A program made the translations under genes and the position numbers. From positions 28,029,464 through 28,093,463 of the forward strand of contig NC_088655.1 in assembly GCF_964019385.1 (NCBI RefSeq): a stretch of DNA of 64,000 bases, in the 5' to 3' direction. Within the stretch, counting starts at the first letter, position 1. Each line of letters opens with the position of its first letter. This DNA comes from Sycon ciliatum (lineage: Eukaryota; Porifera; Calcarea; Leucosolenida; Sycettidae). The notes below the pieces were generated by a model that saw only the letters and a program-made list of their open reading frames with translations, was not told where the DNA came from and ran no database searches. Shown piece by piece: positions 15,008 to 61,761 of the stretch.

Positions 15008-15132
15008 TTTTCGGCCTGGTCCCATAACTCAGATGGTTAGAGCATTGCTCATGAAAAGCAAGGTCCCGGGTTCGAGTCCTGGTGGGCCTGGCATTTCTTC
15101 TCTATTCAGGCAGTTCACTTTCCCGACTGATC
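15008..15132 (+). mobile_element. tRNA-derived SINE, truncated copy in GST B intron
   Basis: It contains GGTCCCATAACTCAG and GGTTAGAGCATTGCTCATG, then box B GGTTCGAGTCC, followed by TTCAGGCAGTTCACTT and CCCGACTGAT of the SINE tail shared with copies at 43514, 49299 and 49616. It is cut off at about 15132, only 45 bases before the GST B exon 2 acceptor. The intron's final pyrimidine tract therefore follows the SINE directly. The anticodon loop lacks T33, so it is not a tRNA gene. Confidence 0.85.
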
Positions 15133-19601: not shown

Positions 19602-20735
19602 ATTGAATTCGTTGTTTTCCATTGCTAGCCTAATCTTCATACTGCTCTCTCCAGGTTCCTATAGTACTCCTTTTGTTTTCTTTTCTTTTCTCTTTTTCTT
19701 CTCCTTCTTTTTCTCAGTTGTCCCCACCATGGCTGGTTAAAATCGCCCGCATCACATGCTTATTGGCACTATGTCATCGTGATTGTGAAATAATAATAAT
19801 AATAATAATAATACGAAGTAGTGGTTGCGACTTCGGCGATGATTTTGTGTGGGGAGCAAACCTTTCTTACAAAATAATAATAATAATAATACGACTACAC
19901 TATAACCGATACGCACTGTACATGTATATGCTCATGATTGATCATTGAACATGTACATGTAGGTATGCATTGCACAGTACTCCTCAACGAAATCCAGTCG
20001 AGTTTCTCAAGTACGCTCGGGGCGTTGCACAGCCCTAGTCCCCTAGACCTGCTAACACTGGGCTGCGAAAAGGTGCGCGGCGTCAACTGCTACTATACTA
20101 GTACATGAGTACTTGACTCTCTAGACAGTAGACTGCGCACTGGAGATGTGTTGTTGTTGTAGAAGTTTATTTAACGTCGCACCACAAACAGGCGATTTCG
20201 CCTCCTTTGATACATGTGGACGACAGAAGGAATGAGAGAGGGGGGGGGGGGGGACAGAAGTACGGAGAGAGGAAGGGTAAAAATAAATAAGCAATCAACC
20301 TCAGGGCTACACCAAAGCAAAAACGGAATGGGAACATACTATATACAAAATAGCTTCATACATATAATTGCAAAACACGTTTACTATTCTTCAGTGTTAG
20401 TAAAGTTATAGGGCTACAATCTACTTGTAGGCCTCATAGCTCAGGTCGTTGAATGTCTCAGTAGCTTGTCAGTTGCCAGTGTGCCCTGTTATCGCACTTT
20501 CTGACTACTTGTTATAGTCGTGGATAGTTGCTTCATAACTCGTTTCCATGTCACTTCTTCTACATGTTTTTTAAAATAAGTTGTAACTCGGAGTTTCATG
20601 GTTATCCGACAATCTCAGACAACAATGAACTTCGTTGTTACGCCTAGTTCCAGTGCTAACTTACTTGGGTTTTGGCTCTGCCCTCGTGCATGCCAGTGAG
20701 CACTTTTTGCAAGGGTTTAGCTGCGTAGCTTGTAC
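19602..20735. other. LINE 3' tail and mixed repeat sequence
   Basis: It contains (AAT)n at about 19791-19812 and 19873-19890, a LINE-like tail GTTTATTTAACGTCGCACCA at about 20167, and poly-G at 20240-20253. At about 20440-20600 is a diverged partial copy of the right end of the TIR element at 52410-53038 (GTTGAATGTCTCAGTA ... CGCACTTTCTGACTA ... AACTCGTTTCCATGTC). No cellular gene is seen. Confidence 0.5.
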
Positions 20736-43513: not shown

Positions 43514-43840
43514 GAAAGGATTGGGAGAACTTCAAATTCAAAGGAACAGTAGGGGAAGTGAACTGCCTGAAAAGAGAAAAAATCGCCAGACCCACCAGGA
43601 CTCGAACCCGGGACCTTGCTTGTCATGAGCAATGCTCTAACCACTGAGCTATGGGACTGGGCTGAACCTAGAAGGCGCTGACAAGCCTTTCACTCCAAAG
43701 GCAGCTCACAACACGTGCCACACATACTGATGGCACTTGGGTCTTTCTCCCTCCCCCAGGGGACCAACCACGGTCAGTTTCTGGACCCTACCAGAAGTGA
43801 AAGAGAGTGATAAATTTATGAAAGGATTATTATTATTATT
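43514..43840 (-). mobile_element. tRNA-derived SINE, full copy
   Basis: On the minus strand it contains a tRNA-like module (GCTCAGTGGTTAGAGCATTG and box B GGTTCGAGTCC) in the middle of a unit of about 320 bases. TTTATGAAAGGATT occurs at both ends, consistent with a target duplication of 14 bases, though GAAAGGATT is also the SINE end. (AAT)n flanks both sides. Confidence 0.85.
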
Positions 43841-45738: not shown

Positions 45739-46329
45739 CTACTTTCCGGCTTCCTGGGTCAGAACGCGCGCGTCTCCCTGAAGCAGCCTCATGATCTGCG
45801 GGTCGGACTGGGCGCCCGCGAGAAACTCCTCTCGCGTCAGCACGCCGTCCCTGTTCGTGTCCATCTCGTCGAAAATTTTCTTCGTGCGCCGCTCCGGCGA
45901 ATCCTCTCCGGCCGGTAGCTTGGCATTGGGTCCCACCATACTATAGATGGAGCGCACGATCTCCAGCATCTCCGCCTCCGTGATGAACCCGTTGCCGTCC
46001 AAATCGTACATGTTGAACGCCCAGGTGAGCTTCTCGTCGGGCTTGCCGCGCGACGTGATCGACAGCGCCGTGATGAACTCTTTGAAGTCGATCTTGCCGT
46101 CCTCGTTCTGGTCAAAGGTGCGGAACACGTGATCGGCGAACTTGTTAGCGTCTCCGAACGGAAAGAAGTGCGAGTAGATGACTTTGAACTCGGTGGCCGA
46201 CAGCACGCCGCTCGGACAGTCCTTCCTGAATCCGCGATACCACTCGCGCACCTCCTTTTCCGTGAAACTCGTCTTGCTGGCCAGATCTGTGACGGTTTCC
46301 GGCGCTAGCTCCGACGAAGAAGAACCCAT
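45739..46329 (-). CDS. Neuronal calcium sensor family protein (hippocalcin/NCS-like), intronless
   Basis: The 196-residue product starts MGSSSSEL, a consensus N-myristoylation site (Gly2, Ser6). EF-hand 1 is degenerate with the CPSG signature (residues 38-41) typical of this family. EF2 loop is D73-E84 ([12 protein letters not shown]), EF3 D109-E120 and EF4 D157-E168, all with canonical ligands. The length and the [20 protein letters not shown] block fit the visinin/hippocalcin/frequenin group. The protein would bind Ca2+, expose its myristoyl group and move to membranes to regulate receptors, cyclases or channels. The C-terminus ([12 protein letters not shown]) diverges, so the subfamily is open. 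The coding sequence is one uninterrupted GC-rich exon, whereas relatives usually have several introns, so it may be a retrogene or reflect local intron loss. Confidence 0.92.
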
Positions 46330-47155
46330 GATGACTGTTAGCTAGCGATTATACTCTGCGCAGCCTGCTGCTGCAACTACAATCATGCACACAAGAATAG
46401 TAATAGTAACTAGGATGTTTTCTACTGCCAGAAGCAGTTCTACTTGTGCTGTCTATAAAAGAAACTGAACTGCAACTGCAAAACCAAACCCTGACCTAGT
46501 ACCTGAGCTGCCGTCGCCGCTAGCGCTGCATGCTAGCGAGTGCATCATTCCGATCCTAGATTCATAATCCTGCCATTCCTAGGCTGTACTGACTGTCACA
46601 GACTCACACACTTGACACAGAGCTCTGCACGATGACTGGTCCACTGCCAGCTAGTGGCATGGCATGATGGCACTGGCAGACTCAGACTCAGAGCGGCAGT
46701 CTGCCAGTCTGGCACTGCACAACTGCACATGCGACGTCGTGGCAGTCATTGTTACGTCATGCAGTCGATCGCTCATGCATCGCTTCGCAGAAGAAGAGTG
46801 ATGCCGCGCCATCGAGCGTGTGCGTTCGCGCGTGTGGGTACTTTTCCGACACTGGCGACAGGCCTGCAGCCTGCAGGCTGCAGGTGACCATGCCAGGCGA
46901 CAGCAGCTAGCTCGCAGCTACAACTCTATTCTAGACTCTAGTTCTAGTACTGGCACCCAGTTCCTGCGTACCCCAACCAACACTAGCGACGTCCTGGAGT
47001 TGCTTGTCGCTCTCATGAGTAGCCCTTCCCCAAAGATGCCATTGTTTTTCCAATTAATTTTATGCTTTTCACAACAGTGCCGAGATAAGAGCAAGTTGCT
47101 GAAATCGCACCCATTTTTTCATTAACTACTTTGCAGGGTAAACACCGTCCATCGC
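46330..47155. other. 5' flank of the calcium sensor gene
   Basis: GC-rich upstream sequence without recognised coding. TAGCCCTTCCCCAAAGATGCC at 47019 is an orphan end of hAT family D. Immediately before 47156 the sequence probably belongs to the LINE that continues at 48544. Confidence 0.4.
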
Positions 47156-49298: not shown

Positions 49299-49598
49299 AC
49301 TTCAAATTCAAAGTATCAGTCGGGGAAGTGAACTGCCTGAAAAGAGAAAAAAACGCCAGACAACCAGGACTCGAACCTGGGACCCTGCTTGTCATGAGCA
49401 ATGCTCTAACCACTGAGCTATGGGACCAGGCTGAACCTAGAAGGCGCTGACAAGTTTTTCACTCCAAAGGCAGCTCACAACACGTGCCACACATACTGAT
49501 GGCACTTGGGTCTTTTTCCCTCCCCCAGGGGACCAACCACGGTCAGTTTCTGGAAACTACCAGAGGTGAAAGAAAGTGATTAAATTTGGAAAGGATTG
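49299..49598 (-). mobile_element. tRNA-derived SINE, inverted copy of a back-to-back pair
   Basis: Minus-strand copy with the same central tRNA-like module (boxes A and B intact). It meets the plus-strand copy at 49599-49615 head to head, together forming an inverted repeat of about 290 bases per arm with a short hinge. Confidence 0.88.
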
Positions 49599-49615: not shown

Positions 49616-49928
49616 CCAAATTTAATCACTTTCTTTCACCTCTGGTAGTTTCCAGAAACTGACCGTGGTTGGTCCCCTGGGGGAGGGAAAAAGACCCAAG
49701 TGCCATCAGTATGTGTGGCACGTGTTGTGAGCTGCCTTTGGAGTGAAAACCTTGTCAGCGCCTTCTAGGTTCAGCCTGGTCCCATAGCTCAGTGGTTAGA
49801 GCATTGCTCATGACAAGCAGGGTCCCAGGTTCGAGTCCTGGTTGTCTGGCGTTTTTTTCTCTTTTCAGGCAGTTCACTTCCCCGACTGATACTTTGAATT
49901 TGAAGTTCTCCCAATCCTTTCCAAATAA
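49616..49928 (+). mobile_element. tRNA-derived SINE, plus-strand copy
   Basis: From TTTAATCACTTTCTTTCACC to CCCAATCCTTTCC followed by AAATAATAATAA. The tRNA-like part at 49778-49850 has box A TAGCTCAGTGG and box B GGTTCGAGTCC, both perfect. The anticodon loop CATGACA lacks T33. The tRNA module is internal, with about 160 bases before it, which is unusual for a SINE. Confidence 0.9.
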
Positions 49929-49943
49929 TAATAACAATAATAA

Positions 49944-50153
49944 TTTGATAACTGCAATCAGTAATACAAGCTGGATCGACATTTGTGTACACTTTATTCA
50001 TGTAATGTAAAACTGTGGAGACAATGTGCAATAAAACGATGAAAATGTGAAGAAATGGTGTAGAGAAAATGAGAATTCAAACAAGTTTAACATTACATGA
50101 ATAAAGTGTACACAAATGTCGATCCAGCTTGTATTACTGATTGCGGTTATCAA
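49944..50153. repeat. Inverted repeat, 65-base arms
   Basis: TTTGATAACTGCAATCAGTA ... CATTCATGTAATGT-like left arm and its inverse, with one mismatch (GCAATC/GATTGC GTT variant), around an 80-base spacer. It is probably a small foldback element or two opposed LINE tails, and it is flanked by (AAT)n on both sides. Confidence 0.7.
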
Positions 50154-50207
50154 ATTGTTGTCTCCTCGCCGTTTGTTCAAATAATAATAATAATAATAAT
50201 AATAATA

Positions 50208-51799
50208 GGGGATACAGAGTCAGCTGCAGAGACGCCGAGTTGTCTATCAATCACTCTTGGTACATGGACGACATTAAACTCTATGGGAAAACTACAAAGG
50301 ATGTGACTACCCTCGTGTCTACCGTGTGTGGCGTTGGTGATGACATCGGCATGAATCTCAACCCGGCCAAGTGTGCCGTGCTGCACGTCAGGAGAGGAAA
50401 ACCAGATGAAGGATGCTCTATCCAGGTTGGCGATGAGACCATTGCAGAGTCGCTACGACTCAATGAAACATACAAGTACCTTGGAGTAGTGCAAGCAGCC
50501 ATGATACCTCACCCGAAGCTCAAGACGCAACTCACTGCAGAATACAAAAAGAGATTGTATTTGCTTCTTAACAGTGGATTGAATGCGCGAAACATGATCA
50601 AGGCCATCAATACGTATGCTCTGCCGGTTATGACATATAGTTATGGAATCGTAAATTGGACCGAGGCTGAAATCAAGACCACAGATCGAGTGACAAGATC
50701 AGCCTTGACTGCGTCTGGATTTCACCACCCCAAAGCCTCAGTCAACAGGCTCTACATGAAGAGGGGAGATGGAGGCCGGGGCTTGGTCTCTTGTGAGGAT
50801 ATGCACGGCCGGAGCATGTGTGGCCTGGCCCGCTACATGAGTACCAGCCCAATAGACAGAATAAGCCTGCTTTATCAGTATCATCAACAAAAACCTACAA
50901 CAAAAAGCCACTCAATAACTGCAAAGGCCGCTAAGTTCCTGTCGAGTTTGGATCTGCCAGCAGCTGGACCAGCTTTACCCAATAAGCATACCATTAAACA
51001 AGCGTGCGCTGAGCGAAAATCCAAAACACTTTCCACTATGCCGCTGCATGGGAGATATTGGAGCCGATTGGAGGAGAATCGCCTAGATAAGGAGCTTACC
51101 TTCATGTGGTTGAAATCAAGGACACTGAAACCTTCAACTGAAGGCATGATTATGGCAGCACAAGACCAATCCCTCAAAACGAAAAATTACCAATACGCCA
51201 TAATGAAGTCAATTCCTCGAACTGATGCCAATTGCAGGCTTTGCAAGGGCAGCTTAGAAACAATTGACCACATTGTCAGTGCCTGCCCAGTTCTTGCTCG
51301 GACCAGTTACATTGAACGACATAACCGGATAGTAAAGTATGTGCACTTCGAAATGTGTAAAGCACGAGATCTACCTACTGGTGCTTCACGATTCGACCAC
51401 CAGCTCAAGGCATTGGTCAAGAGTAATCAGTATCGCCTCTATTGGGAGTATTCGGTCCCAACTGACCTGAAACTATCAGCAAACAGGCCCGATCTGCTCC
51501 TTGTTGATGACAAGGAGCGCATCGCCTACATTATAGACATCAGCGTTCCTGGTGAGAACAACATCAATAAGAAAATGGCTGAAAAGCGCTCGAAATATTA
51601 TGATTTGAAGCGGGAGATTTCGAGGATTTGGTCCCTCAACCAGGTTGACGTGGTCCCTGTGGTTGTCGGTGCCCTGGGAGGCTTGGTGGGGGAGACTCCT
51701 CAATGCCTTCGGACTGTGCAGGGAGGAGACCTGGCTATTGTGCAACAGGAGGCTATACAAGGTTCGATTAAAATACTGAGAACTATCCTTAACATGTAG
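50208..51799 (+). CDS. 5'-truncated RLE-type LINE ORF (RT end, zinc finger, restriction-like endonuclease), uninterrupted
   Basis: The open frame enters from an (AAT)n run and reads WYMDDIKLYGKTTKDVTTLV (RT catalytic MDD), YKYLGVVQAAMI, then CRLCKGSLETIDHIVSACPV, a CCHC finger, and RPDLLLVDDKERIAYIIDIS followed by E and K residues, the PD-(D/E)xK endonuclease. It ends RTILNM at 51799 with no stop or frameshift across about 530 codons. The layout matches R2/R4/NeSL-like elements. The N-terminal half of the RT is missing, so the copy cannot move by itself, but it is young. A 3' UTR with a T-rich run follows to an (AATA)n tail at 52130. It is not a host gene. Confidence 0.85.
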
Positions 51800-52144
51800 A
51801 TGCACTTCTGCTGCGTTTGCATGTTCAATAGCTAAGAGACTTGAATAACGACTGATAAAGACTGATATTTCCTTTGTTACTACTCCCTTCATTGGTTGAT
51901 GTATTTTGCCTGTCGCTGCAAATTCTTTATTATTGTTTTGATGTTGGAGTTCGGATTGAGTTTCTTTCCTTTCTTCCTCTTCCTTCAACTAGTTCTTGTC
52001 CCTTTGGTTTTTAGGTTTTATTTATTTATTTATTTTTGTTTTTGTTTTTTCACTTTCTTTTTACTGTCCCACCCATGGAAATATTTCCCGGTGGGTCTGG
52101 CTTATCGCCTTCGAAAGAAGTGAATAAAGGAGAAATAATAATGT

Positions 52145-52402
52145 CTATTTCCCTCAAACAAGTGAAGAATAATAATAACCTCGTTGAGCACTCTCAGTAG
52201 GCTGCTCTAGTGCTGCTGCATCGCGCAATGCCCGCTACTTTTTGTAGTTTGACCACTCTGGCGCTAGAGCGACGAGCCACCTTAAGGTTTGTGGTGCCTC
52301 CTTTGCACCATGGCTGGTAACTCGGCCTATTTAGCTCGTAGCTGTACTGATGAGGCCTTTAAGGCCGAAACAGCTTGCTGTCTACAGCATTGGGAATAAT
52401 AA
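52145..52402 (+). repeat. Small (AAT)n-bounded repeat unit carrying hammerhead 1
   Basis: About 240 bases between two AATAATAATA runs, starting CCTCGTTGAGCACTCTCAG and ending GCATTGGGAATAATAATA. It codes for nothing and ends just after the ribozyme. It resembles a short SINE or retrozyme-like unit, a family not recognised. Confidence 0.5.
52341..52388 (+). ncRNA. Hammerhead ribozyme, type I, motif 1
   Basis: Stem I GCTGTA (52341-52346) pairs perfectly with TACAGC (52383-52388). CTGATGA (52347-52353) is the invariant core. Stem II is GGCC(T)...(A)GGCC (52354-52366) with a 3-base loop, followed by the invariant GAAA (52367-52370). Stem III ACAGC/GCTGT closes on TT (effectively four pairs with a CTTG loop) and ends with GTC, so self-cleavage is predicted after C52382. 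All invariant bases are present. The very short stem III is typical of animal retroelement hammerheads that act as dimers. It was folded by eye. Confidence 0.88.
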
Positions 52403-52409
52403 TAATAAT

Positions 52410-53038
52410 GTAAAAGAGAAAAGGACATATGGATACGAGGTAAGAGTAACTCTCCATCACTGTAGTTTCAAATTGCACACCTGATGAGCCGTCACGAACC
52501 ATACGGCGAAACGTACGTCGTGTGAAACAACTTGTTTTGTAGTCAACTAGTCCATCACAATGTCATGCATGAGGAGTACTGTAGGAGTTTGGCTTTCGGC
52601 TTGTACAATTCGTTTTCGCAAAGCTTCCCTTTCTTTACTTATCTTTGATATTTATGACCCACCCAAGTTGGGTGGTGTGCTGCTTTGCTGCTTCGAATTG
52701 TAGTTAGACCGCTTTGTCAAATATCGAACTGGTCTCGTCATCGTCCAGTAACAATCGACATTCTTTGTTCCGTTGGGACTATAGCTTTTGCTCGTTTTCG
52801 TTGCGCTTGCCTTCCCCTCTTTGGTCTTTTCCATAACCTTGAACCTTCCAAGTTGGAAGGCTGTCGGTTAGCGCTACGAAGATGTGTTGAAGTTAGGTGT
52901 CAGGACGTCGAATGTCTCAGTACTCTGTCAGTTTTGTGCCTAGTTATTGCACTTTCTGACTGTATATAGTATCATGTTACAGTGATGGAGAGTTACTCTT
53001 AACTCGTATCCATATGTCCTTTTCTCTTTTACATTTAT
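52410..53038. mobile_element. TIR element of about 630 bp carrying hammerhead 2
   Basis: ATGTAAAAGAGAAAAGGACA at the left matches, inverted, TGTCCTTTTCTCTTTTACAT at the right. The inverted match runs about 57 bases with one or two mismatches (GTTAAGAGTAACTCTCCATC). Between them lies the second hammerhead at 52476 and low-complexity sequence. The right half has a diverged copy at about 20440-20600, and a collapsed end-to-end copy lies at 54990-55165. The mode of movement is not clear. Confidence 0.75.
52476..52524 (+). ncRNA. Hammerhead ribozyme, type I, motif 2
   Basis: Stem I CACAC (52476-52480) pairs with GTGTG (52520-52524). CTGATGA core at 52481-52487. Stem II GCCGT/ACGGC (52488-52492 with 52503-52507) has a 10-base loop. 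GAAA at 52508-52511. Stem III is the self-complementary ACGTACGT (52511-52518), followed by C52519, the predicted cleavage base (GTC). All invariant positions are kept. It lies 88 bases after motif 1 on the same strand but in a different repeat. Confidence 0.85.
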
Positions 53039-53075
53039 TTATGGCTCAACATCCGAGTTTCAAATAATAATAATA

Positions 53076-54895
53076 ATGATAATATTTCCTTCCGCATGGA
53101 AAACCGCTAAAGTCATACATGTACATGTACCTGTATACAAGAAAGGTTCCCGCCACGAACCTGAAAACTATCGCCCTATCTCCCTTCTTCCCTGCGTGTC
53201 CAAAGTATGTGAACGCATCTTTTATGACCACTTATACAGACATGTTTCGTCGTTCCTAAGTCCTGCATAATCTGGATTTCGTAAAGGCGACTCCACCTCC
53301 CGTCAACTGACGCGCATCGTGCAACAGGTATGCCAGCATAGGGATAACAGAAACCTTGCTGGTTTTTTCCTTCTTTGACTTGGCCGAGGCATTTGATACC
53401 GCCTGCCATCGAGGATGTTTGGCACAGTTCGAGCATCCATTCAGGGTAAGCAAACCGCCAATCTCCTGGCTGAACTCGCATCTCTCTGAGCGTTATCAGT
53501 ACGTAACTGTGCTTGGCACATCCTCGGCTGCAGAGCCAGTATTGTCAGGAGTTCCTCAAGGATCAATATTATTATTGGTCGCAACCGGTTTATAATTTAC
53601 ATAAACGGCCTACCTGCAGTCTTCCCTGGGACGTCTTTGTTTGCTGACGACACGATCCTTCTCACCTCATCAGCTTCCCTCGCTGGCCTGCAAAACAACT
53701 AGCGTGTTGGCATTCAGGAAGTTCTTTCCTGGAGGCTGTCCCCAAATCTATCAAAAACAAAGATCATGCAAACAAAAATCATGCTCTTCCCTCCCCAGCC
53801 GGAACTCACATCCCTCATCCATCCCAACTTTCCAAATCCAATTGATATAGGGTCTTCTCACAAACATCTTGGCAATGTTATTGCCTCTGCACTCTCTTGG
53901 GTGCCCCACATCGAATATATCTGTCAAAAATCAAGTAAATCCTTAGGAATTCTCCCCCCCCCCCCCCAGCCCTTGGCCTTTCCCAAAGGTGCTTATTTAA
54001 TTCGCACTTTATGCTTTTCGTGTCCCTCGAAATATGCTGAAAAAGTGCTCTTTTTTCAGTGAAAACAGGCAAAACGTGCTCTTTTTTCAGTGAAGCATAG
54101 CCATGATACATGTTCAGATATGAACCCAAGCTGAGAAATGAATACGCACTCTTCCATTTATGGGTCCACGAAAGGCAAAACAGGAAAACACCCACTTTTT
54201 ACAGCATTCTGTACACCGGGTACAAGCTTCACCAACTTGTCGCCCCCCCCCCCCCCGAAAATGCGGCGTGCCAAGGCCCAGATCGAGCACTCGGAAACTG
54301 TGACCGCATGCATGAGCAAACAGATTTTAGCACTTTACAAGCTAAAAAAGCTCAAAAAGGGCGATATTCACCAAAAAACGCAATAAAGGGCGAAAGAAAC
54401 GGGCTTTTCCAAAGAGGGCGAGCACCTTTGGGAAAGGGCTACCCCCCCCCCCACCCCCCCCCCCCCCCCACTGCTCCTACCTCCCAATCTCTTGCAAGCT
54501 TCTTTATATTCAGCCTACCTTCGCCCAATAATCGATTATGCCGACACGTCTTGGGCTGGAGTATCCTCGTCCACTGCTGCAAAGCTTGAAATACACCACA
54601 AGAAAATCCTTAAAATTCTCCTCCGTCAACCCCGCATGCTCTCATCATCCGCTCTTTATAAACTCGCTCACACAACTCCGTTATTACATGGACGCAGTGC
54701 ACACTTGGCTGCTCTTGTCCATTCGATTAAAAGCTCGAGTTGTGCCCACCTCATCTCATGTGTTTTTTGGTCCCCTTCTCTAAGAACTAGGGATTCGCCC
54801 TTTCTCCCCAAGTGTAACTTATCCGCCTTTTTGCGCTCCTTCCTCCCTTTATTGCTCTTTCTGTTTGGCTCACTCTTCCCAGGGTTAGGGATATG
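53076..54895 (+). pseudogene. LINE reverse transcriptase, many lesions, split by hAT D
   Basis: PENYRPISLLPCVSKVCERI, VLSGVPQGSIL and SKTKIMQTKIMLFPPQPELT-type blocks mark the RT, and HIEYICQKSSKSLGIL ends at about 53950. After the inserted element, SLYSAYLRPIIDYADTSWAG and KILKILLRQPRML continue the C-terminus to GSLFPGLGI-stop near 54895. There are stop codons near 53268 and several frameshifts. It is an old copy. Confidence 0.78.
53965..54443. mobile_element. hAT element D relative inside the LINE
   Basis: CCTTTCCCAAAGGTGCTTAT on the left and GAGCACCTTTGGGAAAGGGC on the right are inverted ends of family D. Poly-C tracts flank it (53947-53960 and 54444-54468), which makes the exact ends and duplication unreadable. 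Confidence 0.7.
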
Positions 54896-54989
54896 ATCTC
54901 ACTCCGCCTGTAGAAGGACCGTACCGCCTCGTATTTAATATGACATACATGTAAGTACATGTAATTCGAAACTCGGGTATTGAGCCAAT

Positions 54990-55165
54990 AATAAATGTAG
55001 AAAAGAAAAGGACATATGGAAACGAGTTAATTAAGAGTAACTCTCCACCACTGTAACTACATGTAGATACTATATACTTTCTGACTGTATATAGTATCTA
55101 GTTACAGTGGTGGAGAGTTACACTTAACTCGTTTCCATATGTCCTTTTCTTTTCTACATTTTTAA
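54990..55165. repeat. Inverted repeat, ends of the 52410-53038 element joined
   Basis: AATGTAGAAAAGAAAAGGAC ... GATACTATATAC meets GTATATAGTATC ... inverse, arms of about 80 bases with a short centre TTTCTGACT. It is a foldback derivative of the TIR element. Confidence 0.8.
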
Positions 55166-58430: not shown

Positions 58431-59037
58431 CTCGTGACCATGGTGACGTGAGCACCAGATCGGCACCCAACACCACATGCGCGGTCAGTGCAGTAGCCAA
58501 GGTGACACATCTGCAGCTTCAGTGGATGCGCACGTGCACATTGTGAGAAAGGTCGAGAGTGTCGTCAGTGCAGTGGGCCATGAGTCCCATGACGCCATGG
58601 GGACCACGGCCTCCAAGGAGTCGCGCGAGACCAGGCCGACCCAGGCCGAGGGAGTTGTGCCTTGCGGCAGCTCAGCTGTCACGACTCCCCAGCGCGCGCA
58701 TGCTATCATGCTCGCTAAATTTAGTAGCCTTTATTATGTTCGTAGATCTACATCATATTCATTGCCTTTTTGACATTTTTACAACAGGTAGACCGACCGA
58801 CAAAACACGTCTTCACTCAGTCAGTCAGTCACTCAGTCAGTCACTCAGTCAGTCAGTCAGTCAGTCCGAGGATCATGCGTGCACGGCGCGGATCCAGTCG
58901 GACGACACAACGTCTGGCAAAGATCAGTGATTTATCTGATTTCTGCAATGACATGTAGATGTACATGCCAATGACTATGCATGAGTATGAATATAGCCAC
59001 GATCGATAGTCCTTGAAGCCAGAATGAAGGTGTGACG
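58431..59037. other. 5' flank of the NACHT-LRR gene with (AGTC)n
   Basis: A CAGT/CACT tetranucleotide repeat lies at 58816-58866. No upstream exon could be recognised. ATGTAGATGTACATG runs near 58950. Confidence 0.6.
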
Positions 59038-61761
59038 ATGGCGGAGGACCTCACGTTGCCAGCGTCTATCTTGAAGGCGCAGAAGCTGTTGCGTGATGCA
59101 GCCGAGGATTGTGGCGTGCAGATCAGCGGAGGCTTAGGAACGGATAGTGAAATTGCTTTGAGCGAGCTCTTTGTCAATCTTACTCTGCTGACGAAGAGTG
59201 AAGTAGGAACACTTTTCAAGAGCGAGTCATTCTTTTCCTCCGAATCTGAGAGAGCACGCCAGCTTGCTGCTATCAGAGTAGCGCAGGATGGAACGCCTTC
59301 GAAGACACGCGGTGTTGAGCTCAGTGAGATCTTCCCTGACTCAAGTAGCGATAGCGCAAAGGACCAAGCAGGTGCCAGCGAAGTAGTTGATGCCGAATGT
59401 GGACTGCTTGCTCGCGCAGCTAGCGATGTGTCCAGCGCTGGAGCGAAAAAGAAGAACGTGCTGGCATTTGGCAGCGCTGGCAGTGGCAAATCAACGATCT
59501 TCCTTCTCATGTTGGAATACCTGTGGGCTACACGTTCGTTGTGGAAGGAGAAGATTGATCTTGTCTTGGCTGTAGAATTACGACATGCCAAGGTGCGAGC
59601 GGCAACTAGCCTGTCTGAGTTACTGGAGCGGCGGTTCGCTAATTTGAACATGAAAAAAGACGAGCTGTTGGAGATGGAAAGTTACTTTTGCCGCCATCCG
59701 TCACGTCTTTGTGTTGTTCTAGACGGCATGGATGAATGCAGCCTGCAGGAATGTAGTGAGTATATGCAAGCCATGCTGTTGAGAAGGAACAATGTTGAGA
59801 TGCATGTGGTGGTCACATCTCGACCCTGCGCTGATGCATACAGGCTAAGCCAATGCGGAAAGTACCACCAACAGCTGGAGGTTGTCGGATTCTCACAAGA
59901 GAACGTGAAGACGTACGTGAGAAAAGTGGTGGGTGGAAAACAAGCGGAGGAGATGCTGGAGAAGCTGCACGCACAGCCGGACATGCTAGCACTGATGGGA
60001 ACTCCGTTATTTGCTGCTCTGGCATGTGAGCTGTACTGCTGTGGCCGTGGCTTGGCGAAATCGAGCACGGCATTGTACGAGTCACTACTTCTACGTGTCC
60101 TGGAGCGGAATGCAGGAAAATTGTACAAGTCGTTTGCCGAGGCGGATGCACAGGAGCTGGAGCTGCTGAACGAGGTCTCCCGCTTTGCACTTGCAATGCT
60201 GTCGGTGCAAAAGGCCGTGTTCAGCGAATCGGAAATGAAAAGCGCAGGTCTAAGTGATGCCGCTCTTCAGCTTGGACTTCTGATCGCTTACAAAGACGGC
60301 AGCTCGACGGAAAACCGACAGTACCGCTTCGCTCACCTGTCCCTACAGGAGTTCATGTCGGCATGGTATCTGTCACGTGAAGTGCTGAAGGACGAGCATG
60401 ACGCGGCGTGGCTGGTGAAGAGAGTCGGCCATTACAGTGGTCACATGACAATGTTCTGGCGCTTCGTCATCACACTGCTACCGCGCAAGGCCTCGTTCGT
60501 CACCATGGAGCATCTCTGGCACCTTATCTGTGGGCAGCGTATAGCGTCGACATCGGACGCTGCTGACTCTCGTCTTGTGGCGGACATTGTCAGCTACTCC
60601 CATCCCAAGTCTGCAAGGCCAGGCCTTGAAAGGATGCAGACCATGCTTTGTGCCAGCCTGACGTATGAGAAAATGAAGGAACTCGCCGACAAGCTGCTGG
60701 AGGAGACGTGCGGTGAGGGCAACGGCTGCCAGCGTGTCGAGAGCGCCTTGCCGCGGGGCAGAGAATTAACAGACGAACTATTCCTGTCAACTCTCATCGA
60801 TGTGTGGAAGAAGGAGGCAGTGGATGCCGACACGGAAGTATTCCTCGCTGCTGTGCGCAACGTCAATCCCGTCGTGGCATCACAATGCGAGCGTATGATG
60901 CTTCCACGCCCCAATGTGTCGATTCCATCGTCAACCGAGGACGGTATTGCTACGGATATGCCTGAAGTCCGCCCAGCGGAGTCCGAGAAGGAAGAGCGCT
61001 ATCTGGTTCATCTTCTGGTGGCTCATCATGAACACTGCCAGTATCAAGGTGCGTCCGATCAAGGTGCGTTCTGTGATGGTCATTGTTCATTCTTTTCACA
61101 AGTGTTTTCTAAAGGCATTCGCTTTTGGTCTACACAGCTATCTCTTTTTGATTGTGTTTCTATTGGGCACTTTCTCAAGACGCATGTTTGCTTTGATAGC
61201 AGTGCATTTCACATCGCTAATTCTGGCTGTGGCAGCGCTGGTCTGCAAAGCATTGCTGCTGGTCTGTCGCACTGCACGAGTGTGCGCATGCTTACTCTTG
61301 CCAAGAATGGATGTGTTGATGGCTGTGTTCTGTCGTCCATCATTCTGTCTTTGTCCGGCAGTCTAGAGATTGTCAATTTGGGTTATAATGTATTAAGTGC
61401 TGATGGTTTGGTATCAGTCTGTCGAGCACTGTCTTCTTGTTCTAAGCTGAGGGAAGCCGATGTATGCTACCCCGCCTTTCTTCGTAGTCAAGATGTTCCT
61501 CTCTCATGTGTTAGCGAAGTTTTCGAGTCATGCCCTAACCTACATAGGCTGGATCTAGAGGGTTGTAGCTTCCAGTGTGATGATGATTGTGTGGAAAGGT
61601 TTGTGGGAGCCGTTCAGTCCCATGCTGTGCTGGAAATTCTAGGCGTCACACGCCATTATCAGAATGCCCGATTCCTGTCCAGGCTTGATCAGCTAGTCTG
61701 GGACCCCACCTGTACCCTTACTACAATCTTGAATACACGCATAGTAGCTGTAGCTGACTAG
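59038..61761 (+). CDS. NACHT-LRR (NLR-like) protein, single exon, 907 residues
   Basis: The ATG at 59038 is in good context (GTGACGATGGCGG). Residues 1-130 have no recognisable death-fold domain. The NACHT NTPase shows P-loop GSAGSGKST (145-153), Walker B CVVLDGMDEC (acidic D229-D232-E233), sensor-type VVVTSRP, and the winged-helix hallmark RFAHLSLQEFMSAW (from 430). After a helical stretch and a Ser/Glu-rich linker (about 625-660), leucine-rich repeats follow from about 725: GLQSIAAGLSHCTSVRMLTL, SLEIVNLGYN, NLHRLDLEGC. Such proteins sense microbial or stress cues and oligomerise on nucleotide binding, and large families occur in sponges, cnidarians and echinoderms. The LRR part is short (four to five repeats), so 3' exons may exist beyond 61761, though the frame ends with a normal stop. 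It is intact, with no stops or shifts. Confidence 0.9.
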   Translation: MAEDLTLPASILKAQKLLRDAAEDCGVQISGGLGTDSEIALSELFVNLTLLTKSEVGTLFKSESFFSSESERARQLAAIRVAQDGTPSKTRGVELSEIFPDSSSDSAKDQAGASEVVDAECGLLARAASDVSSAGAKKKNVLAFGSAGSGKSTIFLLMLEYLWATRSLWKEKIDLVLAVELRHAKVRAATSLSELLERRFANLNMKKDELLEMESYFCRHPSRLCVVLDGMDECSLQECSEYMQAMLLRRNNVEMHVVVTSRPCADAYRLSQCGKYHQQLEVVGFSQENVKTYVRKVVGGKQAEEMLEKLHAQPDMLALMGTPLFAALACELYCCGRGLAKSSTALYESLLLRVLERNAGKLYKSFAEADAQELELLNEVSRFALAMLSVQKAVFSESEMKSAGLSDAALQLGLLIAYKDGSSTENRQYRFAHLSLQEFMSAWYLSREVLKDEHDAAWLVKRVGHYSGHMTMFWRFVITLLPRKASFVTMEHLWHLICGQRIASTSDAADSRLVADIVSYSHPKSARPGLERMQTMLCASLTYEKMKELADKLLEETCGEGNGCQRVESALPRGRELTDELFLSTLIDVWKKEAVDADTEVFLAAVRNVNPVVASQCERMMLPRPNVSIPSSTEDGIATDMPEVRPAESEKEERYLVHLLVAHHEHCQYQGASDQGAFCDGHCSFFSQVFSKGIRFWSTQLSLFDCVSIGHFLKTHVCFDSSAFHIANSGCGSAGLQSIAAGLSHCTSVRMLTLAKNGCVDGCVLSSIILSLSGSLEIVNLGYNVLSADGLVSVCRALSSCSKLREADVCYPAFLRSQDVPLSCVSEVFESCPNLHRLDLEGCSFQCDDDCVERFVGAVQSHAVLEILGVTRHYQNARFLSRLDQLVWDPTCTLTTILNTRIVAVAD

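Follow-up and report, generated by a model that had tools for sequence, protein, structure and literature searches.

Two hammerhead ribozyme motifs that lie close together on one strand of Sycon ciliatum DNA probably serve as the processing ribozymes of two families of non-coding retrozymes, and insertions of one of these families, whose unit is 592 nt long, consist of tandem copies running head to head between two set but different ends. The motifs reside in a stretch of 64,000 nucleotides (C14:28029464-28093463 of the 538-Mb assembly that was searched; hereafter the window). Self-cleavage is predicted from the sequence of the motifs, and we have reasonable confidence in the explanation as a whole. 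The layout of the 592-nt insertions suggests that a circular 592-nt RNA is copied from both strands of the target by the enzyme of a Penelope-like element (PLE) acting in trans, a proposal that we consider likely and in which the circular template, the order of events and the enzyme are the parts that we infer.

The descriptor used to locate hammerheads required CTGANGA, GAAA and a UH before the cut, together with at least four, three and two base pairs in stems I, II and III respectively. Scanning both strands of the 64-kb window gave exactly two matches, each on the plus strand, and 500 simulated windows in which dinucleotide frequencies were kept gave two matches in total. The preliminary description of this DNA had reported two complete hammerheads on one strand; the motifs and their cut sites are those found here, but their coordinates give a gap of 87 bases rather than 88.

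52341-52388, plus strand: HHR1, type I hammerhead; cut at C52382/T52383; 6, 5 and 4 pairs in stems I, II and III
52476-52524, plus strand: HHR2, type I hammerhead; cut at C52519/G52520; 5, 5 and 2 pairs in stems I, II and III

Both motifs have the type I core (CUGANGA, GAAA, UH), stems I to III and an open stem I. The invariant core bases and the fully paired stems I and II claimed earlier, with six and five pairs in stem I, are present in each. A minimal stem III had likewise been claimed for both, and this applies to HHR2 but not to HHR1, whose four pairs are closed by a CUUG loop. An outer CUC/GGG helix is possible beyond the six pairs of stem I in HHR1, as is an outer helix beyond an AAA bulge in HHR2.

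At Rfam gathering scores the window contained no hammerhead and four tRNA matches only, an outcome that had been named beforehand as grounds for rejecting the motifs. With a relaxed threshold applied to positions 51500-53700, HHR2 matched RF00163 with 26.8 bits (gathering score 34, E 8.8e-4), and HHR1 was matched by the type III model only (27.8 bits, gathering score 48.5, E 0.0033), in an alignment that misses its true stems I and III. In our view the miss at gathering score does not settle the matter, given that related ribozymes at other places in the genome exceed this score and copies of the motifs keep the core. Among the best 74 of 76,236 candidates scored in a genome search with RF00163, 21 matches were listed and four exceeded the cut-off. 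Conservation of the core in other copies, which the preliminary description had proposed as a check, was confirmed in the copies read of both host repeats.

The four tRNA-like sequences (15018-15090, 43587-43658, 49363-49421 and 49784-49842) are closely similar to one another, the last two form an inverted pair, and all four are perhaps tRNA-derived repeats. The window also carries a 24-bp sequence repeated perfectly in tandem fifteen times (2495-2853), a neurocalcin frame (45742-46338; 98% identical to a protein with an scpid identifier) and a 914-aa open frame with NACHT and NOD2_WH domains (59017-61761).

Predicted folding energies for the hammerhead structures were -17.3 kcal/mol for HHR1, compared with a regional minimum of -19.7 kcal/mol, and -9.2 kcal/mol for HHR2, compared with -14.6 kcal/mol; the hammerhead is not the minimum-energy fold of the HHR2 region. 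Minimum-energy folding of the single motifs, with z-scores of -1.5 and -0.1, carried little information. The more stable alternative fold and the two-pair stem III of HHR2 would agree with a reading in which the hammerheads are decayed, inactive relics and the signals for reverse transcription alone matter. We consider such decay unlikely, as all eight HHR1-family ribozymes in five loci read whole pass the full descriptor despite the units of these loci being 3-4% diverged from the window copy. Copies of the 592-nt unit are too alike for conservation of HHR2 to bear on this reading. Across nine hammerheads of this genome all stem positions are paired, and a single position may show as many as four pair types; because pairing is a requirement of the descriptor itself and two of the nine share one sequence, this pattern is not used as evidence of covariation.

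That type I hammerheads reside here in mobile repeats of two different families, as had been supposed, is borne out by the copies of a 237-nt and a 592-nt unit found genome-wide. HHR1 belongs to the former, and its surroundings are as follows:

50141..51799, plus strand: LINE ORF with the end of the reverse transcriptase and a zf-RVT domain (Pfam RVT_1 6e-6, zf-RVT 1.9e-4, both under the Pfam gathering scores)
52179..52394, plus strand: 5'-truncated monomer of the 237-nt family carrying HHR1, with AATAATAATAA on both sides
52395..52408, no strand: (AAT)n tract, evident in the sequence, that separates the two ribozyme elements and is the target of both

A genome search with the HHR1 unit, in which the best 40 of 1223 candidates were scored, gave 107 matches at 39 loci. 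Among the matches listed, 37 of these loci have a single orientation, one runs minus-then-plus and one plus-then-minus; the tandem step is mostly ~237 bp, and seven of the 39 hold a single match. The window copy has the 3' end ATTGGG, directly past stem I of the ribozyme, and seven of eight loci read share this end (..TACAGCATTGGG) right behind the ribozyme. The eighth, L257, ends a few bases earlier; there CAGGATTGTAACAA occurs beyond both ends, on the left ~15 bases away from the start of the element. Target site duplications (TSDs) of 12-15 bp flank the element in five of the eight loci, and two others have duplications of 5 and 7 bases.

The LINE upstream of the ribozymes, to which the preliminary description had drawn attention, does adjoin them but looks like an (AAT)n landing site rather than a parent. 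Its (AAT)n-bearing 3' region probably supplied that site, and the LINE is not part of the ribozyme elements. The proximity of HHR1 and HHR2 is explained by both elements occupying (AAT)n beside this region, and a joint function is not needed. A SINE or LINE parent of HHR1 was dropped from consideration because the 237-nt tandem family accounts for this motif, and it is possible that the family uses a LINE-like route of insertion. Of the undescribed retrozyme-like or SINE-like families suggested earlier, the retrozyme-like kind fits these tandem, non-coding families. The SINE-like Schistosoma Sm-alpha repeat, like the elements here, is a small retroposed repeat with a type I hammerhead; Sm-alpha elements are single SINEs, whereas those of Sycon are tandem units.

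Hammerheads abound in this genome, with seven descriptor matches in a sample of twenty 10-kb stretches (200 kb; 195 kb without N). An abundant kind, family A, forms tandem arrays of 226-228 bp, and its copies mostly end just past the ribozyme (..CGCAGATTGAG), exceptions including L128, L141, L142 and the last unit of L123. TSDs at 17 family A insertions measured 9-13 bases in eight cases, 39 bases in L160, where the target is repetitive, and 7 bases or fewer in eight. Outside the ribozyme, comparison of the window HHR1 element with the 228-nt family A gave a local score of 48, where the highest of 400 shuffles reached 46, and a global score of 12, where the shuffles reached at most -7.5; as judged from these alignments, the two are related outside the ribozyme.

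Several further observations were made on these loci. One family A copy (L142, 592-618) ends at the ribozyme cut, with ..CTGTC followed by AGATAGATAGA, as if the end of a self-cleaved linear RNA had been copied. L135 (1-510) holds a hammerhead, GAAACGTACGTC, with a stem I of GATTGC/GCAATC, located between direct repeats ~348 bp apart and possibly representing a further family. Additional kinds in the sample lie on the minus strand at 7077 of L168 and at 905, 2534 and 8886 of L156, and one of them has GUA at the cut.

Metazoan non-LTR retrozymes have been described as small tandem repeats of 150-450 bp, typically 170-400 nt, with a type I hammerhead, and the discussion of the same report allows for circular RNAs of 150 to >1000 nt (PMC7229834). 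The Sycon families have in common with them, as far as that account was available, the type I hammerhead, short non-coding tandem repeats, a GC content below 50% and TSDs longer than 4 bp. The tandem units of the 237-nt family fall within 150-450 bp, and its TSDs exceed 4 bp. The unit of the HHR2 family is tandem and non-coding (longest frame 103 aa stop to stop) with a GC content of 0.44, but its 592 bp lies outside the 150-450 bp range and exceeds the typical 170-400 nt. Head-to-head arrays, the end rule set out below and targeting of (AAT)n were not found in the accessible part of PMC7229834. The literature searched (titles and abstract starts, with limited coverage of subscription journals) yielded no description of head-to-head retrozyme arrays and no report on Sycon ciliatum and hammerheads. 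Neither a 21-mer of the inverted repeat nor the HHR2-type pattern occurred in viral contigs, and the 21-mer had one chance match in GTDB genomes. Stretches of IMG/VR contigs that contain the core CTGATGAGGCC..GGCCGAAAC number at least 120.

HHR2 had been placed just inside one arm of a 630-bp element with terminal inverted repeats (TIRs). The inverted repeat exists (58-nt arms, 98%), but it belongs to a head-to-head retrozyme insertion and not to a TIR element, and what had passed for TIRs are the 3' ends of two copies primed in opposite directions. The insertion has the following parts, with the two kinds of outer end termed SHORT and LONG:

52409..52466, minus strand: minus arm, formerly the left TIR, with the SHORT end ..TTTTACA (from the inverted repeat and a comparison of ends at 34 loci)
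52467..53061, plus strand: plus arm of about one full 592-nt unit, formerly the TIR interior and right TIR, with the LONG end ..GAGTTTC
53034..53061, plus strand: 'tail' of ~28 nt between the SHORT and LONG end points (from the comparison of ends)
53062..53085, no strand: (AAT)n, the right-hand continuation of the target tract, evident in the sequence

The two arms share a few bases in the window copy, which has its SHORT end on the left and its LONG end on the right. A genome search with the interior of the supposed TIR element gave 141 matches at 36 loci, with 97-100% identity to the window copy; the best 38 of 1091 candidates were scored, and this set is therefore biased towards young, close copies. 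The copies follow one another with a tandem step of 592 bp. At 26 of the 36 loci the minus copies come first and the plus copies second, head to head, no locus has any other mixed order, and ten have a single orientation. For six of these ten (the window, C11:9297994, C5:22355034, C1:2663624, C1:60877857 and C11:1472909) the opposite arm was found in the fetched flanks; the flanks of C1:16317006, C1:43558388, C1:96911148 and C2:39363625 revealed none.

The same loci indicate how the arms meet. Of 26 minus/plus junctions, 13 have an overlap of 1-5 bases between the arms, three have directly adjoining arms, four have a gap of 1-3 bases and six a larger one. Truncation points inside the query, 46 in all, are spread over positions 7-502, and these 46, which leave 65 bases outside the query uncovered, show no accumulation at the ribozyme cut (query 60/61; the nearest is at 58). 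The two arms appear to break off independently of each other: the median distance in 26 pairs is 196, compared with 152 in permutations, and two pairs, one of which is a coded pair, lie no more than 10 nt apart, compared with 1.5 expected, where eight of the 52 values fell outside the query and were all coded as 5. The longer arm is at the LONG end in 12 of 23 loci (Wilcoxon p 0.62), and a rule placing it there always was thereby ruled out. Arms range from ~45 nt (L179) to ~4 kb, with up to about seven copies each; those longer than one unit run uninterrupted across the ribozyme cut site, and the ribozyme is intact in the array copies read.

Near-identical 58-nt arms, 98% complementary, might be taken as the mark of a MITE or another non-autonomous TIR DNA transposon that carries a hammerhead by chance, a view that we regard as having practically no chance of being correct. 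Such elements have constant terminal repeats at both ends, and the 592-nt loci do not; arm length varies over the range given above, the long arms are tandem full units, and the two ends are never alike in the 26 loci with both ends resolved. The array layout likewise ruled out a TIR transposon carrying the ribozyme.

Diverged relatives of the 592-nt unit were also noticed. One in the window (54967-55164; 83-92%) is arranged head to head and lacks the ribozyme, with its LONG end on the left, its SHORT end on the right and AAGTACATGTA on both sides as an 11-bp TSD. Other diverged fragments occur at 20441-20549 of the window, in L157 (9791-9930) and in L126 (1675-1844), and in L157 the LONG end and the SHORT end of two 592-type fragments face each other ~20 bp apart.

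Ends were fetched for 34 of the 36 loci, C1:52347633 and C1:69000421 being left out. Both ends could be resolved in 26 of the 34, and every one of these 26 has one LONG and one SHORT end. The SHORT end reads ..TTTTACA or ..TTCCACA, except that the calls for C9:1017741 and C7:6021051 rest on a loosened pattern and differ from these plain forms. The LONG end, ..CATCCGAGTTTC, lies ~28 nt beyond SHORT, with a tail sequence of ..ATGGCTCAACATCCGAGTTTC, and at C9:1017741 and C3:12258427 the LONG sequence breaks off at GAGT. The other eight loci comprise C1:43558388, which the loose pattern scored as SHORT/SHORT but whose left side is non-element sequence, and seven with a missing, unresolved or continuing end.

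The target is AT-rich. At least three AAT units lie near both ends in 22 of the 26 resolved loci, always as one continuous tract whose direction is split evenly (11 each way), whereas tracts of (AAT)4 or more account for 0.14% of the bases sampled. At targets other than plain (AAT)n, TSDs of ~8-12 bp were recognized at the few readable loci, mostly by eye; examples are TTATCATTCG, TTCAAATTTA and ATAATTAT. At L248 a 592-type insertion lies within the 3' end of a PLE copy, with a 12-bp TSD (TAAAATGAAATG), its LONG end on the left running a few bases past the usual point and its SHORT end on the right.

Set outer ends, independent arms, small overlaps at the junctions and uninterrupted passage across the cut site are what would be expected if both ends of a DNA break prime synthesis on a circular or multimeric RNA. 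We propose that the template is a circular 592-nt ribozyme RNA copied in trans by a Penelope-like reverse transcriptase/GIY-YIG endonuclease. The enzyme would make a staggered break, preferably in (AAT)n, and both exposed 3' DNA ends would then serve as primers for reverse transcription, which would start on the RNA at SHORT for one of them and at LONG for the other. An arm could cover less than a single turn of the circle or as many as about seven, and the growing arms would be connected, head to head, at random positions, often via microhomology. That the process is a dual-ended, rolling-circle form of target-primed reverse transcription, with obligatory SHORT and LONG starts and head-to-head tandem arms at each insertion, is a formulation to which we give even chances. 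A strict rule of one start of each kind, if true, would imply that the circle is gripped by one dimeric RNP at two fixed positions, each of which serves one target strand.

A circular template is suggested by tandem arms that cover up to about seven turns, by a ribozyme that is intact and by strong folding of the sense circle, which at -175.7 kcal/mol compares with -143.1 +/- 6.0 kcal/mol for 60 shuffles (z -5.4); the antisense circle gave -151.8 kcal/mol. Insertion could proceed in the same manner on a long, uncleaved multimeric transcript of an array with no circle. Such a template would be compatible with uninterrupted passage across the cut site and up to about seven copies per arm, and a PLE hammerhead was dispensable for insertion in vitro, according to the available part of PMC11167929. 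Even so, the intact ribozymes in the array copies read should cut such transcripts, and the self-paired sense circle resembles the circular retrozyme RNAs presented in PMC7229834, to the extent that they are described there, and we regard a linear multimer as possible but doubtful.

Two other routes to inverted structures were weighed against dual priming on a circle. Snap-back self-priming on an antisense template has been proposed for Adineta Penelope (in the available part of PMC3846280) and predicts head-to-head inverted repeats as its product. It should leave the break points of the arms close together, whereas those observed look independent, and the 592-nt insertions meet the target DNA on either side at a defined element end, LONG on one side and SHORT on the other; we consider this route very unlikely. 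Twin priming during LINE-type target-primed reverse transcription also yields inverted pieces, and a LINE with (AAT)n near its end adjoins the elements. Twin priming produces one fixed and one variable end, however, and the 592-nt insertions have both ends set, differing by the tail, which makes mobilization by this route improbable. Two-ended insertion is not a general property of the retrozymes here: one family A array (L140) runs head to head, with three minus units and a stub followed by plus, but its 3' ends on the two sides are roughly alike, with no LONG/SHORT difference, and insertions of the 237-nt family are mostly one-way.

PLEs were considered a strong candidate for mobilizing metazoan retrozymes in the portion available to us of Cervera and de la Pena 2020 (PMC7229834). 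As described in part of PMC3846280, Adineta Penelope has inverted, head-to-head pLTRs with a 31-bp tail at one of them, and some copies have TSDs of 8-10 bp, others having no TSD or direct pLTRs only. The Anolis PLE protein, according to the part of PMC11167929 available, cleaves both strands, extends both, and begins synthesis internally at two neighbouring sites between which the tail lies. The 592-nt family has in common with PLEs, as these two partial sources present them, head-to-head inverted ends, a tail at one end, an AT-rich target, TSDs of 8-10 bp and a hammerhead near the end (PMC3846280, PMC11167929). It differs from them in its multi-copy tandem arms and in having no frame longer than 103 aa. 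The in vitro PLE assay showed no difference in start site between the strands, unlike the strict use of one site per strand in the 592-nt family (PMC11167929, in the same part).

An open reading frame with reverse transcriptase and GIY-YIG domains is absent from the 592-nt unit, which is thus not a PLE itself, its head-to-head ends, one-end tail, TSDs and AT-rich target being those of a PLE insertion. This PLE-like grammar without a long frame makes a PLE enzyme acting in trans the best candidate. The earlier observation that no Penelope-type reverse transcriptase lies nearby holds for the window, where none was noticed, but PLE-type open frames are present elsewhere in the genome. A genome search for GIY-YIG domains listed 13 matches among the best 150 of 944 candidates scored. 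One region, L240, has a PLE-type open frame of 807 codons between stops with a GIY-YIG match (E 3.4e-5) and no RVT_1 match of its own (Pfam, E 0.001). Precomputed annotation gives RVT_1 in many and GIY-YIG in some of its 62 relatives, and it is from these relatives that we infer its reverse transcriptase. The frame follows the same end grammar as the 592-nt insertions, with flanking inverted, head-to-head ends of 390 bp (96%), the left one LONG with a 34-nt tail and the right one SHORT, and GTCTTCC was read by eye beside both; in its relative L244 the LONG end abuts (TTA)n.

Among the matches listed, L240 and L241, like eight further GIY-YIG regions that were fetched, have no 592-type tail of their own, and apart from the 592-type insertion in L248 the PLE-type regions examined have no notable sequence similarity to the 592-nt unit.

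PLEs have so far only been suspected of mobilizing animal retrozymes, in the portion of PMC7229834 available. The 592-nt family, which looks young from the similarity of its copies, is simple and numerous, and each of its insertions records both priming events. If true, the two-ended rolling-circle model would provide a mechanism for the formation of animal retrozyme arrays, and the rule of one LONG and one SHORT end, if it too is true, would offer a reason for the tail of Penelope-like elements.
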